Shown here piece after piece: positions 1,525-9,361 of a stretch of 64,000 bases of DNA (position 1 is its first letter; the number at the start of each line of letters is the position of its first letter). The notes under the pieces were generated by a model that saw nothing but the letters and a program-made list of their open reading frames with translations, was not told where the DNA came from and did not search any database. The stretch spans positions 62,001-126,000 of the forward strand of contig CAILNX010000029.1 of the NCBI GenBank assembly GCA_903835685.1, written 5' to 3'. A program made the translations under genes and the position numbers. Source of the DNA: an uncultured delta proteobacterium. Its GTDB lineage: Bacteria; Desulfobacterota; Desulfovibrionia; Desulfovibrionales; Desulfovibrionaceae.

Positions 1525-2607
1525 ATGGACCCCGCATCGCTCATCCCGGCCTCGGACGCCATCCCCGTGGCCTGGGGCTGGTTCGAGGTCCTTTCCCTGC
1601 TCACCTTCGCCCTGCACCTGCTGCTCATGAACACGGTGCTCGGCGGCGCGGTTTTCGCCCTGGTCGGCCAGGTGCGTGGCCAGGTGCATGGGCAGTCCCT
1701 GGACACCAGCCGGGATCTGTCCAAGCGACTGCCCATTGTCCTGGCCCTGACCGTGAACCTGGGCGTGCCCCCTTTGCTGTTCGTGCAGGTGCTCTACGGC
1801 AATTTCCTGTATACCAGCTCCCTGCTCATGGCCGTGTTCTGGCTCGGTCTGGTGGGCACGGTCATGACCGCCTACGCCCTGCTCTATGTCTGGGACTTTC
1901 ATTTCGACAGCTTTTCCGGCCCGGCCCGCACCCTGTGCCTGGGCGCGAGCGTGGCCCTGCTCCTGGTCTCGGCCTTCATCCTGGTCAACAACATGTCCCT
2001 GATGATCCGGCCCGAGGCCTGGGCGGCCTATTTCCAGAACGCGCGCGGCACCCTGCTCAATCTCTCGGACCCCACCCTGATCCCCCGCTATCTGCATTTT
2101 GTCCTGGCCGCCCTGGCCGTGGGCGGGCTGTTCGTGGCCCTGTCCGCGCGACTCAAGGCCCGCGCGACCGGGGATTTAGAAGCCGGGGCCGAGACCGTCC
2201 GCCAGGGCCTGCGCTGGTTCACCACCGCCACCATGGCCCAGATGGCTGTGGGCCTGTGGTGGCTCATGTCCTTAAGGCGCGAGGTCATGCTCACCTTCAT
2301 GGGCGACAGCGTCCCGGCCACAGCGGTGTTCCTGGCCGCACTGGTCCTGGGCCTGTCCGCCCTGACCGCCGGAATGCGCGGCCGGGTGGAGCTCACGGCC
2401 TGGCTCACAGGGGCCACGGTCCTGGCCATGGTCGGGGTGCGCTCCTTTCTGCGGGCCGCGAGCCTGGCTCCGTACCACTCCGTGAGCAGTCTGGCCGTGA
2501 CCGGCGAACTTTCACCTCTGCTGGTTTTCCTGGCTGCCCTGGCCGTCACCCTGGCCGTCGTGGTCTACCTGCTCAAGCTGTACCGGCAGGCCGGGAAGGA
2601 GGCCTGA
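1525..2607 (+). CDS. Cytochrome bd-like polytopic membrane protein, partner of the octahaem protein
   Basis: A 360-residue protein with about nine hydrophobic segments and no signal peptide. His31 is followed eight residues later by Gly40-Gly41, and the same His-x8-Gly-Gly spacing recurs at His191/Gly200-Gly201, so the protein looks internally duplicated. The next gene, three bases downstream, begins with the same motif (His24/Gly33-Gly34). The histidines are plausible haem b ligands, as in the CydA helix that begins with an axial His. I read it as a second membrane subunit of a CydA-related quinol-interacting complex. It is not a canonical CydB, and I cannot name the family. ATG chosen with AAGGAG upstream. 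Confidence 0.6.
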   Translation: MDPASLIPASDAIPVAWGWFEVLSLLTFALHLLLMNTVLGGAVFALVGQVRGQVHGQSLDTSRDLSKRLPIVLALTVNLGVPPLLFVQVLYGNFLYTSSLLMAVFWLGLVGTVMTAYALLYVWDFHFDSFSGPARTLCLGASVALLLVSAFILVNNMSLMIRPEAWAAYFQNARGTLLNLSDPTLIPRYLHFVLAALAVGGLFVALSARLKARATGDLEAGAETVRQGLRWFTTATMAQMAVGLWWLMSLRREVMLTFMGDSVPATAVFLAALVLGLSALTAGMRGRVELTAWLTGATVLAMVGVRSFLRAASLAPYHSVSSLAVTGELSPLLVFLAALAVTLAVVVYLLKLYRQAGKEA

Positions 2608-2610
2608 GCC

Positions 2611-5250
2611 ATGGAATATCCGGTCTGGCAACTCACCACCCTGGGCGGGGGCTTCCTTATCGCCTTGATCGCCACGGTGCATGTGTACGTGGCCCATTTC
2701 GCCGTGGGCGGAGGACTGTTCCTGGTTCTGGCCGAGCGCCTGGGCCTGGCCCGCAAATCCCCGGCCATCCTGGAATACACCAAATACCACGCCAAATTCT
2801 TCATGCTCCTGACCATGGTCTTTGGCGGGCTCTCGGGCGTGGCCATCTGGTTCACCATCGCGCTTCTGGCCCCCCAGGTCACCTCCGAGCTCATCCACAT
2901 ATTCGTCTTCGGGTTCGCCATTGAGTGGGCCTTTTTCGTGGGTGAGATCGTGTCCCTTTTGGTCTACTACTATTCCTTCGGCCGCATGCGCGCGGCCGAG
3001 CACCAGCGGGTGGGGCTGCTCTATTTCCTCTTCGCCTGGCTCTCGCTTTTCACCATCACCGGCATCATCGGGTACATGCTCACCCCGGGCCGCTGGCTTC
3101 AGACCTTCGGGTTCTGGGACGGGTTCTTCAATCCCACCTTCTGGCCAGCGGTGTGCTTCCGGACCTTCATGGCCCTGACCTTTGCCGGACTTTTCGGGTT
3201 TTTCAACGCCTGCCGGATCAAGGAGGAGAGCGCCCGGGAGACCATGGTCCGGGCCTGCGCCGTGTGGACGGCCGCCCCGGTGTTCCTGGCCCTGCCCTCG
3301 GCTTGGTGGTATGTAAAGGCCCTGCCCCCCGAGACCCTGGAGCGGGTCACCCGCCTGGCCGGGGAGACTTGGCCCTATGTCCAGGCCGTGCCCCTGGTCG
3401 GCGCGGCCCTGATCCTGGGCGGGCTGTTCATGATCCCCCGCCTGCCTGCCGGGGCGCGCACGGCCCTGGCCCTGGTTCTGCTTCTGGTCGGCCAGGCCTA
3501 CATCGGGGCCTTCGAGTTCGCCCGGGAGGCCGGTCGCCGTCCCTTCCTGGTCACGGACCACGTCTATTCCAACCAGATTCCGGTGGCCTCGGCGCCCCTC
3601 CTGAACGCCGAGGGCCTGCTCTCCTGGGCCAAATGGTCCCCGGTCAAGGCCGTGGACCCGGCCAACCCCCTGCCCGCGGGCAAGGTCCTCTTCGACTTGG
3701 AGTGCCTGTCCTGCCACAGCCTGGGCGGCCCGGTGAAGGACATCCGGCCGCGCACGGCCAAGTACACCGTGGAGGGCATGGACTGCCAGCTCGACGGCCT
3801 GGGCCGGGTGAACACGGCCATGCCTCCCTTCATTGGCACCCGGGCCGAGCGCATGGCCCTGGCCCAGTACATCGTGCAGGGGGTGAACGGACGGGGGCCA
3901 GAGGCCGAGACCGTGGTCACGGCCCGGGACCTGGCCTTGAACGTCCCCTCCTTTGACGAGAATACGGCCGAATACACGCTTCTGGCCTGGAGCGCCCAGG
4001 GCATGTACGCGGTCACGGACAGCGACGGGTATTTCTCCCTGCGCCCGCCCGGAGGCGACCTGCGGGCCGTGCTCATAAGGCGTGGCCCCCAGCCTGAACT
4101 GATCGTTGACAACGTGGTTCTGCGCTACGGGGTGGAGCAGGGATTTGAGTACCCGGCCAAGCATTCGGATTTCTGGAAGCAGGCCAGGGCCTCCCTGGGC
4201 CTGAACCTGACCGTCAATGTGGGCCTGGCGGGCAAAGGCCTGTCCGGGGTCCTGGACCCCCGGCCCGAGACCAAGACCTTTGAGGCCCGGGGCATCCCGG
4301 TCCTGCCTTATCCTGATCAGGGCGGGTTCAACCCCTATCCCCTGGTCACGGTGGAGGCCCGGGACAAGGCCAGCGACGCCCTGCTGGTCAAGACCCGCAC
4401 CGTGCTTCCGGTGTCCACGGAAATGGGCTGCAAGAACTGCCACGGCGGCAAGTGGAAGGTCGAGGGCCTGGCCGGGATTTCCGATGCGGCCGGGCAGGGC
4501 GTTCTGGCCACCCACGACCAGATGAGCCGCACCAACCTGGCCTCTCAGGCTGCGGCCGGAACACCTGTGCGCTGCCAGTCCTGCCATCCGGATCGAGGGA
4601 CTGGACAAGGCGCGACCAAGGAGCTGTTGACCCTTTCAGCCGCCCTGCACGGACTGCACGCCAATTACATGACCGGCCGGGGGGCCGAGGCCTGCGCCAG
4701 TTGCCATCCCTCCCGGGCCGACGGTCCCACCCGCTGCCAGCGCGGCCGTCACGCGGCTGCGGGCCTGACCTGCGTCAACTGCCACGGGACCATGGAGGAC
4801 CACTCCCTGGCCCTGCTCAAGCACGAGGCCGAGGCGGGCAAGAAGGCCGCAGGGCTGCTCATGCGCGCCTTGAAGCCCCGGGCCGTGGCCGACGTCGGGG
4901 CCGTGGTCCCGCGCGAACCCTGGGTCCAGGAGCCTGACTGCCTGAACTGCCACAAGGAATACGCCCGGCCTGACCGGGCCACGGCCACGGGCTTCAATGT
5001 CTGGACCATGGGCGAGGCCGGGCTGTTCCAGAACCGCCGCGACGACATGAACGCCATGCCCTGCGCGGCCTGCCACAATGCGGCCCACGCTACCTTCCCG
5101 GCCCAGAACCTCTACGGCCGGGACCGGGACAACATCGGGCCCTTGCAATACATGGGCTTTGCCGGGACCCTGGGCCAGTCGGGCAAGTGCACGGTTTGCC
5201 ATATGGAGAGCATGGACGGGGACGCCCACCACCCGAACCTGGTGAAGTAG
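2611..5250 (+). CDS. CydA-like membrane domain fused to an octahaem c-type cytochrome region
   Basis: 879 residues. Residues 1-330 are polytopic and CydA-like: His24 and His29 in the first helix, a GEIVSLLVYYYSFGRM segment near 111-126, and EAGRRP at 306-311, which resembles the E-x-G-R-x-P motif of bd oxidases. Residues 360-879 are soluble and hold eight CxxCH haem sites: CLSCH (365), CKNCH (607), CQSCH, CASCH, CVNCH, CLNCH, CAACH and CTVCH. Residues 480-605 are haem-free and beta-rich. A ninth possible site reads CQRGRH and lacks the second Cys. Inferred role: electrons pass from membrane quinol through b haems to periplasmic c haems, i.e. a quinol:cytochrome c oxidoreductase or a bd-superfamily reductase with a cytochrome tail. 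Direction and partner are unknown. Confidence 0.75.
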   Translation: MEYPVWQLTTLGGGFLIALIATVHVYVAHFAVGGGLFLVLAERLGLARKSPAILEYTKYHAKFFMLLTMVFGGLSGVAIWFTIALLAPQVTSELIHIFVFGFAIEWAFFVGEIVSLLVYYYSFGRMRAAEHQRVGLLYFLFAWLSLFTITGIIGYMLTPGRWLQTFGFWDGFFNPTFWPAVCFRTFMALTFAGLFGFFNACRIKEESARETMVRACAVWTAAPVFLALPSAWWYVKALPPETLERVTRLAGETWPYVQAVPLVGAALILGGLFMIPRLPAGARTALALVLLLVGQAYIGAFEFAREAGRRPFLVTDHVYSNQIPVASAPLLNAEGLLSWAKWSPVKAVDPANPLPAGKVLFDLECLSCHSLGGPVKDIRPRTAKYTVEGMDCQLDGLGRVNTAMPPFIGTRAERMALAQYIVQGVNGRGPEAETVVTARDLALNVPSFDENTAEYTLLAWSAQGMYAVTDSDGYFSLRPPGGDLRAVLIRRGPQPELIVDNVVLRYGVEQGFEYPAKHSDFWKQARASLGLNLTVNVGLAGKGLSGVLDPRPETKTFEARGIPVLPYPDQGGFNPYPLVTVEARDKASDALLVKTRTVLPVSTEMGCKNCHGGKWKVEGLAGISDAAGQGVLATHDQMSRTNLASQAAAGTPVRCQSCHPDRGTGQGATKELLTLSAALHGLHANYMTGRGAEACASCHPSRADGPTRCQRGRHAAAGLTCVNCHGTMEDHSLALLKHEAEAGKKAAGLLMRALKPRAVADVGAVVPREPWVQEPDCLNCHKEYARPDRATATGFNVWTMGEAGLFQNRRDDMNAMPCAACHNAAHATFPAQNLYGRDRDNIGPLQYMGFAGTLGQSGKCTVCHMESMDGDAHHPNLVK

Positions 5251-5251
5251 A

Positions 5252-8200
5252 ATGGATATGGCCCCTGGACCGCGCCGTGTGGCCCGCTGGGGCCTGGTCC
5301 TGGCCGGGCTGGTGGCGGCCTACGCTCTGGCCGGGTTTCTGGCCGTGCCTCTCCTGGCCGGGCGGGTCTTGGTGGCCGAGTTGTCCCGGGCCACCAACCG
5401 CAGCGTGGACCTTGCCTCCGTCTCCTTCAATCCCTTCACTCTGACCCTGGAACTGCACGGCCTGCGTTTGTCCGACCGGGAGCCCGGCCTCTCTCTGGTC
5501 GCGGTGCGCACCCTGCGGGTCAACGCCGAATCCTTTCCCCTGCTCCTGCGCCAGGCCAGCCTGTCCGAGGTCCTGGTGGACCAGCCCCAGGCCCATCTCA
5601 TCCGGCGGCCGGACGGGAGCGTGAATATCCTGGACCTCCTGCCTCATCCCCGGGCGCAGGCCGATCCTCCTCCCGATCCGTCCGTCCGGGCCGCCTCCCG
5701 GGCCTGGGGCTTCCGGGTGGAGAACCTGCGGGTGCTGAACGCCTCCCTGACCTTCAACGACACAGTGGCCGGAGTGACTCACCGGGTGGGCAATGTGACC
5801 TTGAGCGCCCCTGTGGTGGCCAGCGCGGTCAGGCAGGGCGAGCAGGGGCTTTCGGCCAATTTCACGGCCGTGGTGGATGAGGGTTGGGTACATCTGGAGG
5901 CCCGGGGCGATCCTTTTGCGGCCAACGGGACCCTGGCGGTCCTGGCCGAGGTGCGCAACCTGCCTCTGGGGCCGAGCTTAGCCGAGGCCCCGCTGATTTT
6001 CGCCGGTCCCAGACCCTCGGGACGGCTGGACGCAAACGCCACGGCCAACATGACCCTGGACCACCAGGGCCTGATCGGCCTGGTCTCGCGCCTGGACCTG
6101 GCCCTCACGGGCCTGGAGGCCCGGGACGCCCAAGGCCGGGAGGTCCTGCGCCTGCCCCGGCTGGGTCTGGAGGGCGTCCGTTTTTTCCTGCCCGAGAACC
6201 GGCTGGAGGTGGAGGCCGTGACCCTGGCCCATCCTCTGGTGCGCCCGGAACTTTCGGCCCAGGGCCTGAACCTGGCCACCCTTGTCCGGCCCGCGCCGGA
6301 AAAACCCCAGCCACGGCATCGGGCCGAGCCAGGCGCGGTCCAGGGCAACGCCTCCCATGCCGGAGCGGCCCGGCCTCCAGTCCCGGCCTTCCGGGCCCGG
6401 GTCAACGCCACCAATTCCAGCCAAGGAAAGAGCGCTCCGGCTAATGACACCACCGTCAAAGCCGGGATTGCGGCTGAATCAGGCCCAAGCCCCGGGCATA
6501 AGCCGGGCTCCAACAGGACCCAGAACAAGACCGCGCCAGTGGTCCAGGCCAACTCAACGGCAGTCCGCGCCCCGGCCCCGTTCAGCGCGGAAATCCATCA
6601 GGTCCGGGTGACGGGCGGCCGGGTGGAGTTCGCGGACTCCACGGTTTCCCCGGGGTTCAAGACCGTGCTCGCGCCCCTGGACCTGACCCTGTCCGGGATT
6701 CGCTCCGACGGGCATGGCCGGATCAAGACCAGTCTGTCCGCAGCCACGGACAATGGGGAGAAGATCGGATTTTCCGGGGAGGCGGCCAGCGCGCCTCTGT
6801 CCCTGGCAGGGACTTTGGAGGCCTCGGGCCTGGACCTGAAACGCTACGCCCCCTACCTGGGCGGACTGCCCCTGGAGGTTTTCGAGGGCCGGGCCGGGGC
6901 CAAGCTCAAGGTGGAGCTGGCCCTGGGCAGCGGTGCGCCCGGGGTCCTGGTCAAGGGCTCGGACCTGTCCCTGGACGGCCTGCGCCTGCGGGTCCAGGGG
7001 GACGAGGCCGATCTCCTGCGCCTGGACCGGGTGGACGTGCGGGGCCTGAACCTGGACCTGGCCGCCCGCCGGGTGGACGTGGGTCAGGTGGCGGCCCGGG
7101 GCGGGGGTGCGTTCCTGGCCCGGGACGCGAATGGAATGTTCAACGCCGCGCGTCTGGCCGTTCCGTCCGGGAACCGGACCAGGGCGACTGGGGAGCGCGC
7201 GACCCAGAACCAGTCTGTTTCAGGTCAGAACCAGACGGCAGTGGTCCAGAATGGCCCGGATTCTCCCGGAAATCAGTTGGCCCAGGCCAAGGTCGAGCCC
7301 GATGCGGCCCAAACGGTTCCGGTGGCGGCTCAGCCCAAGGCCAAGGGCAAGACCTTGGTCAAGGGCAAGGCCGGGAAAAAGTCCAAGGCCAGGTCCCAGG
7401 TCGGCCCCAGGCCAGCCCTGCAATCCCTGCCCGTCGGCCCGGTCCCGGGGGAGGCTCCGCCCGCGCCCGCAGGCAGCCCCTGGACCGTGGTTCTGCGCGA
7501 TCTGCGCCTGGACGGCCAGTCCCTGCGTTTTCTGGACCGGTCCAACCCCCGGCCCGTGGACCTGACCCTGGATGCCCTGGCCCTGCACCTGACGAGCGCG
7601 GTGCTGAGCGGGGGAGTCCAGGCCCCCATGGGCCTGGAGCTGGCCTTCGGCCTTGGCCAGGGCCGGGCCAAGATTTCCGGGCAGGTGGGGGTGTCCCCCC
7701 CGAGCGCGGACCTGACCCTGGATTGCACCGGCCTAGACTTGGCCCCCCTGGCCGGGTATGCGCCCGCGTCCCTGAAGGTCACCCTGGCCCGGGGCCAGGC
7801 CAGTCTGCGCGGGCGGTTGGTGGCCACGGCCCCGCCCGACCGGGACCTGACCCTGTCCTGGAAGGGAGGCCTTGGCCTGCACCATTTCCAGTTTGTCGAC
7901 ACCCTGGCCCGCCAGCCCCTGTTGCAATGGGGGGCCTTGGATATCCACGAGATCCAGGCCGGGATGAACCCGGACTATCTCCAGATGGAGCGGGTGAACC
8001 TGGACAAGCTCTACGCCTCGGTGGTCCTGACCGCCAACCGGACCCTGAACCTGGTGGACGCCATGGCCCAGGACAAGGGCGGGGACAAGAACCCCAGACC
8101 CACGCAGGCCGCGTTGACGGCCTCGCCTCCGGGCTCGGTCCAGACTCCGCCCCCGGCCTCGGCCCAGGGTTCGGCCAAAAAGGCCAAGGTCCGCAATGTG

Positions 8201-9361
8201 GTGGTGGAGACCGTGGTCCTGACCAATTCCACTGTGGACTTTACGGATTTGGGTTTCAAACCGCCCATCGAGATGCGCCTTGACGAACTGCACGGCCGGG
8301 TGCAGGGGCTCATCTCCAAGGAGGGCACCCCGGCGGACATCTCCCTTGAAGGCCGCGTGGATGGCGAGGCTCCCATTTCCATCCTGGGCCAGGGGACCCT
8401 GTTCGGCGGGGAGTTGTTCCTGGATTTGAAGATGACCACCGACGGCCTGGACCTGGCCCGCATGAGCTCCTATTCCGAGAAATACCTGGGGCACGCTGTG
8501 CGCTCGGGCAAGCTGGCCCTGGACCTGCAATACAAGGTGCGCAACAGCACCCTGGACTCCCAGAACAAGATATCCCTGGACAACCTGGCCCTGGGCCGCA
8601 AGGTGGAAAGTCCCGACGCCGTGGACCTGCCCATTTCTTTGGCCCTGGCCCTGTTGCGCAACAGCGACGGGGTGGTGGAGCTGGACGTGCCCGTGCGCGG
8701 AGATTTGAACAAGCCGGATTTCAGCATCGCCAAGGTGATCTGGGAGGCCCTGGCGGGCATGTTCAAGAAGCTCATCTTCGCCCCCTTCTCCTTCCTGGGC
8801 CTGCCTTTCGGCCAGGACAAGACCGGGTACATCGATTTCGAGCCCGACAGCCTGATCCTCACTCCGGAATCGGCCCGGAACCTGGACAAACTGGTGTCGG
8901 CCGTGGTCTCAAAACCCGATGTGGACATCGAGGTGGCCGGGCAGGTGGACGCCACGGCCGACGAGGAGGGGGTGCGACGGTACATGCTCTTTCGCGATCT
9001 GGCCGAACTGAAAATCAAGGACCTCCTGGACCGGGGCGAGGCCGCCCTGCGGGTGGACGAGGTGACCTTGACGCCTGAGGAGTATCAGGACTATCTGGGA
9101 CGGTTCTATCGCCAGACCAAGGGATTTTTCAAACCTTGGAGCGCGGCCAAGACCGAGAAGGAACTTCTGGACGCCATTGTGGCCACCGAGGAGGGCCAGC
9201 GCCAGTTCGCCCGCAAGCGGGCCTTGGCCGTGCGGGACAATTTGACTGCCGAGGGCCGCATCCCTCTCCGCAGGGTGTACGTGGTGGAGCCCGACCAGGT
9301 GGCGGCCGAGCCCTGGCACGGGGCCAGGGCCAGCCGGGTGAATGTGACCCTGCGCTACTAG
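5252..9361 (+). CDS. Giant DUF748/AsmA-like envelope protein with C-terminal OmpA-like part
   Basis: 1369 residues. One N-terminal membrane anchor (about 10-35) is followed by SVDLASVSFNPFTLTLELHG, a typical DUF748 opening. The conserved DUF748 core (LGFKPPIEMRLDELHG) lies near 1005-1020. The last ~180 residues resemble the OmpA/MotB-like end of the family (IDFEPDSLILTPESARNL). DUF748 and AsmA-like proteins are thought to span the periplasm and help outer-membrane lipid or protein homeostasis. Three disordered Pro/Ala/Gln/Asn linkers (near 350-450, 635-740 and 945-985) interrupt it and are unusually rich in N-x-S/T sequons. The ATG sits two bases after the octahaem stop, so co-transcription is likely. 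Confidence 0.75.
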   Translation: MDMAPGPRRVARWGLVLAGLVAAYALAGFLAVPLLAGRVLVAELSRATNRSVDLASVSFNPFTLTLELHGLRLSDREPGLSLVAVRTLRVNAESFPLLLRQASLSEVLVDQPQAHLIRRPDGSVNILDLLPHPRAQADPPPDPSVRAASRAWGFRVENLRVLNASLTFNDTVAGVTHRVGNVTLSAPVVASAVRQGEQGLSANFTAVVDEGWVHLEARGDPFAANGTLAVLAEVRNLPLGPSLAEAPLIFAGPRPSGRLDANATANMTLDHQGLIGLVSRLDLALTGLEARDAQGREVLRLPRLGLEGVRFFLPENRLEVEAVTLAHPLVRPELSAQGLNLATLVRPAPEKPQPRHRAEPGAVQGNASHAGAARPPVPAFRARVNATNSSQGKSAPANDTTVKAGIAAESGPSPGHKPGSNRTQNKTAPVVQANSTAVRAPAPFSAEIHQVRVTGGRVEFADSTVSPGFKTVLAPLDLTLSGIRSDGHGRIKTSLSAATDNGEKIGFSGEAASAPLSLAGTLEASGLDLKRYAPYLGGLPLEVFEGRAGAKLKVELALGSGAPGVLVKGSDLSLDGLRLRVQGDEADLLRLDRVDVRGLNLDLAARRVDVGQVAARGGGAFLARDANGMFNAARLAVPSGNRTRATGERATQNQSVSGQNQTAVVQNGPDSPGNQLAQAKVEPDAAQTVPVAAQPKAKGKTLVKGKAGKKSKARSQVGPRPALQSLPVGPVPGEAPPAPAGSPWTVVLRDLRLDGQSLRFLDRSNPRPVDLTLDALALHLTSAVLSGGVQAPMGLELAFGLGQGRAKISGQVGVSPPSADLTLDCTGLDLAPLAGYAPASLKVTLARGQASLRGRLVATAPPDRDLTLSWKGGLGLHHFQFVDTLARQPLLQWGALDIHEIQAGMNPDYLQMERVNLDKLYASVVLTANRTLNLVDAMAQDKGGDKNPRPTQAALTASPPGSVQTPPPASAQGSAKKAKVRNVVVETVVLTNSTVDFTDLGFKPPIEMRLDELHGRVQGLISKEGTPADISLEGRVDGEAPISILGQGTLFGGELFLDLKMTTDGLDLARMSSYSEKYLGHAVRSGKLALDLQYKVRNSTLDSQNKISLDNLALGRKVESPDAVDLPISLALALLRNSDGVVELDVPVRGDLNKPDFSIAKVIWEALAGMFKKLIFAPFSFLGLPFGQDKTGYIDFEPDSLILTPESARNLDKLVSAVVSKPDVDIEVAGQVDATADEEGVRRYMLFRDLAELKIKDLLDRGEAALRVDEVTLTPEEYQDYLGRFYRQTKGFFKPWSAAKTEKELLDAIVATEEGQRQFARKRALAVRDNLTAEGRIPLRRVYVVEPDQVAAEPWHGARASRVNVTLRY

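Follow-up and report, generated by a model that had tools for sequence, protein, structure and literature searches.

Two adjacent genes, here called A and B, encode a pair of membrane proteins of the cytochrome bd superfamily in an uncultured member of the Desulfovibrionaceae (Desulfobacterota). They are located at positions 1525-5250 of the window, the whole stretch of 64,000 nucleotides that was analysed (GenBank assembly GCA_903835685.1, contig CAILNX010000029.1, positions 62,001 to 126,000 of the forward strand). The following features, in window coordinates, make up the locus:

1514-1519, + strand: AAGGAG, likely ribosome-binding site of A, read from the sequence
1525-2607, + strand: open reading frame A, 360 amino acids, nine helices; CydA-superfamily paralogue without c-haem motif
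2596-2602, + strand: AAGGAGG, likely ribosome-binding site of B inside the 3' end of A, read from the sequence
2611-5250, + strand: open reading frame B, 879 amino acids; eight-helix CydA-like membrane domain and periplasmic c-haem region (1 + 7)
2611-3585, + strand: B residues 1-325, CydA-like membrane domain (alignment, conservation, charge topology)
3643-3900, + strand: B residues 345-430, mono-haem cytochrome c6/CcoP-like domain (profile matches, alignment)
3928-4410, + strand: B residues 440-600, beta-rich spacer domain without a Pfam match (Pfam search, AlphaFold model)
4420-5247, + strand: B residues 604-879, seven-haem domain (CxxCH motifs, alignment)

Both genes are on the same strand, separated by 3 nucleotides. 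With the likely ribosome-binding site of B lying within A, translation of the two genes may be coupled. The host genome contains dsrA, in agreement with the sulfate reducer presumed in a preliminary description of this DNA, which was made from the letters alone. It also encodes class III cytochromes c3. A canonical CydAB is present at a separate locus (contig C54), where the single CydB of the genome adjoins its own CydA.

The membrane domain of B has the cytochrome bd (CydA) fold. In a sensitive search, its first ~320 residues matched PF01654 with 29.5 bits at a cut-off of 26.2; an hmmscan with default filters did not list this family for the whole protein. The profile of B matched the CydA of G. 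thermodenitrificans (5doq_A) with an E-value of 1e-7. The AlphaFold model of B (pLDDT 89, pTM 0.87) gave the CydA of 9r2g as best Foldseek match (E 2.6e-8, TM 0.71 by target), and the motif 'EAGRRP' aligns with 'GRQP' of CydA. Protein A has no Pfam match, and a sequence-profile search against the PDB returned noise only. Its assignment rests for this reason on fold, paralogy and residue mapping. The AlphaFold model of A (pLDDT 94, pTM 0.91) is structurally closest to CydA chains (Foldseek, E 1.1e-4, TM 0.70), and the family profile of A matches the profile of B across 311 columns (E 2.9e-9). A and B are paralogues of each other, and both have the CydA fold. The membrane domains of both remained unnamed by default-filter hmmscan and NCBIfam and were named by profile and fold methods. 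An identity of A as CydB was ruled out: the CydB profile was not matched, and Foldseek favours CydA. The preliminary description had postulated a CydA-like domain with this motif in B, fused to eight CxxCH sites and paired with a second bd-like protein. Search and alignment against the bd superfamily, with CydA similarity in the N-terminal part as the test, bore out these structural claims.

The number of CxxCH motifs in protein B is exactly eight (residues 365, 607, 655, 695, 721, 777, 818 and 860). In an alignment of 63 rows, made up only of relatives chosen for having eight such motifs, none of them varies. A scan of named genomes yielded 269 relatives, the best 80 of which are used for all counts of named loci. 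Without selection by motif number, most of these 80 named loci still have eight CxxCH; the exceptions are mainly contig ends, frameshifts and split genes. The first c-haem site (C365-x2-C368-H369) is situated ~55 residues past the last helix, in the small c6/CcoP-like domain, with the invariant M404 as likely sixth ligand. The last 275 residues form the seven-haem domain. Conserved candidate distal histidines are present there at residues 635, 680, 683, 714, 731 (in 57 of 63 rows), 826 and 873/874. If haem is inserted at all sites, B would carry one His/Met and seven bis-His c-haems. Seven CxxCH motifs matched by seven conserved candidate distal histidines make all eight c-haems look six-coordinate, as suits electron transfer. 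Eight membrane helices are predicted for B. Lysines plus arginines average 2.5 in the loops of the N-terminal side and 10.6 in those of the opposite side, and this asymmetry places both ends of B, hence the c-haems, by prediction in the periplasm. In split relatives the multihaem part is a separate adjacent gene; in L037, L040 and L042 its product has a class III cytochrome c3 domain at the end. The host genome itself harbours a stand-alone ten-haem protein of 631 amino acids at another locus (L046:7055-8950, contig C37). Its middle part is 46% identical to the heptahaem region of B, and the C-terminus consists of a class III cytochrome c3 domain.

The conserved residues of CydA are divided between the two proteins. 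They were assigned in a merged five-way alignment that combines A and B with a more distant pair (A2/B2) and canonical CydA and is consistent with the HMMER alignment to 5doq. The sites were read with the haem residue numbers of E. coli CydA, which are general background on the family. The counterparts of CydA H19 are H24 in B and H31 in A. The acids E99, E107 and E445 correspond to E105, E112 and E302 of B; in A the first two positions hold no acid, and the third is variable. The histidine of haem b558, H186, corresponds to H191 of A but to R184 of B. Conservation was counted across three subgroups, with 135 sequences of the B type and 120 of the A type. Invariant in the B-type sequences are H24, E105, W106, E112, R184, E302, R305, E306 and R309. 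In the A-type sequences H191, M302 and R306 are invariant and R188 nearly so, while H31 is a histidine in all rows except two gapped ones. Far homologues of B in Thermus, Agrobacterium and Methylosinus keep the B residue set, Thermus with Asp in place of E112. By this mapping, A and B together retain what one CydA retains. B would hold the two-haem site of the O2-reducing type, and A the low-spin entry haem. The quinol loop (Q-loop) of CydA is absent from A, B, A2, B2 and all relatives aligned.

The loss of the Q-loop from both subunits and the invariant O2-site residues of B point to electron entry from the periplasmic haems. We favour, with moderate confidence, a heterodimeric O2 reductase of the bd superfamily, formed by A and B and fed by periplasmic c-type cytochromes instead of quinol. 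Electrons would enter at the bis-His seven-haem tail of B and pass to the His/Met haem c just past its last helix. From there they would reach b-type haems in the membrane, probably including one low-spin haem on H191 and M302 of A. O2 would be reduced at the two-haem site in B (H24, E105/E112, E302), and A would fill the place of CydB in an ordinary cytochrome bd. Class III cytochrome c3 is the most likely electron donor. The likely role would be O2 consumption and protection in oxygen-exposed organisms, perhaps combined with energy conservation.

The preliminary description had proposed the opposite direction, a quinol-to-periplasm conduit. In that case the pair would have its own site for menaquinol oxidation, and the octahaem tail would pass the electrons to cytochrome c3 or beyond. 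A bis-His heptahaem tail and the fusions to c3 domains suit exchange with periplasmic cytochromes in either direction, and sulfate reducers possess membrane modules of this sort, such as Qrc (PMC6303296). The CydA quinol loop is, however, missing from both subunits and all aligned relatives, other quinone sites being beyond the reach of sequence. The O2-site acids and histidine are invariant, and there would be no point in keeping equivalents of E99, E107 and E445 without O2 chemistry. Mono-haem forms in Thermus and Alphaproteobacteria also speak against a conduit, which we regard as unlikely; the flow of electrons would rather be reversed.

Gene neighbourhoods bear on the acceptor. The argument is drawn from relatives, because the genes next to the pair in the window are housekeeping genes and a DUF748 gene. 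Flavodiiron-protein (FDP) genes, recognized by PF19583 and flavodoxin, are found near 9 of the 80 named loci, usually in the order FDP-HEAT-A-B. Other arrangements occur at L206, L210 and L214; in L214 the FDP-HEAT-A cluster is kept though B lies elsewhere in the genome. A HEAT-repeat gene stands directly between the FDP gene and A in L099, L103, L120, L127, L142, L155 and L166. A rubrerythrin with an Rrf2 regulator domain is encoded downstream of B in Desulfonema magnum (L097, by Pfam), and rubrerythrin genes lie near L147 (by sequence) and L206. The FDP and rubrerythrin counts are raw, with no background rate, and related loci are not independent.

These neighbours are compatible with a further reading, in which the same layout would use periplasmic electrons to reduce nitric oxide (NO) or H2O2 at the bd-type site, as a reductase or scavenger. 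Flavodiiron proteins act on O2 or NO, and rubrerythrin acts on peroxide. Cytochrome bd oxidases are known to react with both NO and peroxide. Against this stand the conserved residues, which are those of O2-reducing CydA, and the lack of recurring nitrogen-oxide genes among the neighbour clusters examined. NO or peroxide as the main substrate is judged improbable. A Qrc-like entry point, feeding cytochrome c3 electrons inward to a membrane quinone, would accord with the occurrence in cytochrome c3-rich sulfate reducers and with the c3-domain fusions. Since no quinone site is recognizable, the O2-site residues are conserved and the neighbourhoods point to O2 defence, such a module is very unlikely.

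Several points weigh against the proposed cytochrome c-fed O2 reductase. A methionine at the position of M393, the second b558 ligand of CydA, is found in neither the A nor the B representative; this ligand is not conserved at its own position. M302 of A may substitute for it, which is a guess with two paired losses behind it. Among far homologues of A, H191 and M302 are both present in Agrobacterium and both missing in Thermus and Methylosinus. Being kept or lost together is expected if both ligate one haem. Most loci have no O2-defence genes nearby, and many of those that do are related. The locus in the window has no such neighbours either: coaX and lpxB precede the pair, and DUF748 follows it. 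Why a genome with a canonical CydAB would need another oxidase is not explained. In the literature, no experimental study of a pair of the A-B type was found.

Three families, qOR, OR-C and OR-N, make up the bd superfamily; a quinol site in CydA is found in qOR only (PMC13189123, citing Murali 2021). A and B share the fold and a GRQP-like motif with canonical CydAB of the qOR family (PDB 9r2g, 5doq, 6rko). Equivalents of H19, E99, E107 and E445 are found in B, and of H19 and H186 in A. Unlike canonical CydAB, the pair has no Q-loop and no CydB but a c-haem tail, B lacks the ninth helix, and the functions are divided between two CydA paralogues. The features that mark qOR, namely the Q-loop, a CydB partner and equivalents of H186 and M393 in the O2-site subunit, are missing. 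OR-C enzymes, as described in 2021 by Murali, Gennis and Hemp, reportedly have CydA paralogues in pairs, with a c-haem attached to the CydA-like subunit. By this definition, the pair resembles OR-C in belonging to the superfamily outside qOR, in lacking a quinol site and in bearing a c-haem motif on a CydA subunit. In our reading, A and B would represent the described but uncharacterized OR-C type in an octahaem-fused variant, an assignment made by features and not by a tree with OR-C references.

A similar case is the OR-N-type CydAA' of Nitrospirota and Nitrospinota, with two CydA-like subunits and a proposed function as cytochrome c-oxidizing O2 reductase (PMC12342949, PMC10839748). Cytochrome c is the presumed electron source of OR-N enzymes, which are still unproven (PMC10839748). 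The OR-N-like loci (L226-L232), assigned by layout only, differ from A and B in having a CydA-like open reading frame of ~620 amino acids with separate cytochrome genes and no fused octahaem. The mono-haem pairs on plasmids of Thermus thermophilus, Agrobacterium and Methylosinus are homologous B-A pairs that retain the B residues, except that Thermus has Asp in place of E112. In contrast to A-B they have one c-haem, and H191 and M302 of A are missing in two of the three. The preliminary statement that bd oxidases normally lack c-haems holds for the quinol-oxidizing family, but OR-C and OR-N, both without a quinol site, have already been described (Murali 2021, as cited in PMC13189123 and PMC10839748). 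Hence a system of this kind, which the preliminary description took to be possibly undescribed, is not wholly so. The non-quinol families are the known part; the octahaem fusion appears to be the new one, judged apart from the list in Murali 2021.

Of 119 genomes of the host's family, 69 encode the B membrane domain; by genus, the figure is 28 of 44. Nearly all of the best 80 of the 269 relatives are named as Desulfobacterota-type bacteria (Desulfonema magnum, Malonomonas rubra, Desulfobulbus, Desulfarculus, Pseudodesulfovibrio and others), and most have eight haems and A directly upstream. With strict thresholds (E < 1e-20 for A, E < 1e-30 for B), 297 genomes of the phylum contained A in 51 cases, B in 53, both in 50 and either in 54. 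In Desulfonema magnum and G275 the genes are unlinked, yet both are present; linkage alone therefore does not account for the co-occurrence. In a tree of the B membrane domain, all octahaem fusions fall into one supported clade (SH-aLRT 97), in which split forms are found too. About ten label changes are needed on this tree, some due to truncated contigs or frameshifts. One fusion with later splits would be the likeliest origin of the octahaem form.

O2 consumption in sulfate reducers is usually ascribed to CydAB, haem-copper oxidases and Roo (PMC11451228). An additional enzyme of the bd type, fed by cytochrome c and present in so many genera, would change this picture, and the low-potential periplasmic cytochrome pool would gain a direct outlet to O2. 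The pair offers a target for testing O2 reduction by the non-quinol branches of the superfamily. A bolder version, to which we give slightly less than an even chance, takes A and B as a c3:O2 oxidoreductase. Two CydA paralogues would share the work of one, A with the entry haem and B with the O2 site, and an octahaem wire would be attached to the catalytic subunit. It would be a widespread means of O2 consumption in sulfate reducers, experimentally unstudied, and the orphan CydA homologue of cable bacteria may also belong to it. The cable bacteria reportedly encode CydA homologues alone, not a full bd oxidase (PMC10030654). Whether these homologues are B-type proteins is a lead only, with a bearing on the missing terminal oxidase.

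Upstream of A the window contains the housekeeping genes coaX and lpxB. A DUF748/AsmA-family gene (1369 amino acids, 5252-9361, same strand) starts one base past the stop of B; this gene is not among the recurrent neighbours of A and B in other genomes. No shared gene-cluster partner beyond A and B was found within the window.

Several variant layouts occur. Mono-haem B-A pairs are found in other families of the same phylum as well as on the plasmids mentioned; the records of these plasmids label the two genes 'cytochrome c' or 'c-type cytochrome' and 'hypothetical protein' or 'cytochrome C'. Another B-A pair of the phylum, more distantly related, combines a one-haem B with an A bearing a two-haem cytochrome c tail (~520 amino acids); it is found at L043, L044, L047, L048, L049, L062, L063, L208 and L209, often with a two-haem gene upstream. 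In L226-L232, from other families of the phylum, the CydA-like protein is followed by two-, one- and two-haem cytochrome genes. These loci resemble the OR-N-type CydAA' of Nitrospirota, and one has a 16-haem gene upstream. L212 encodes a three-haem B of 585 amino acids before A, followed by an eight-haem Cytochrome_cB (PF11783) protein. In the Agrobacterium and Methylosinus plasmids (L221, L222), a sensor-like ATPase and a response regulator are encoded after the mono-haem pair, and the Methylosinus plasmid carries a further c-type cytochrome between the pair and the genes for these two.

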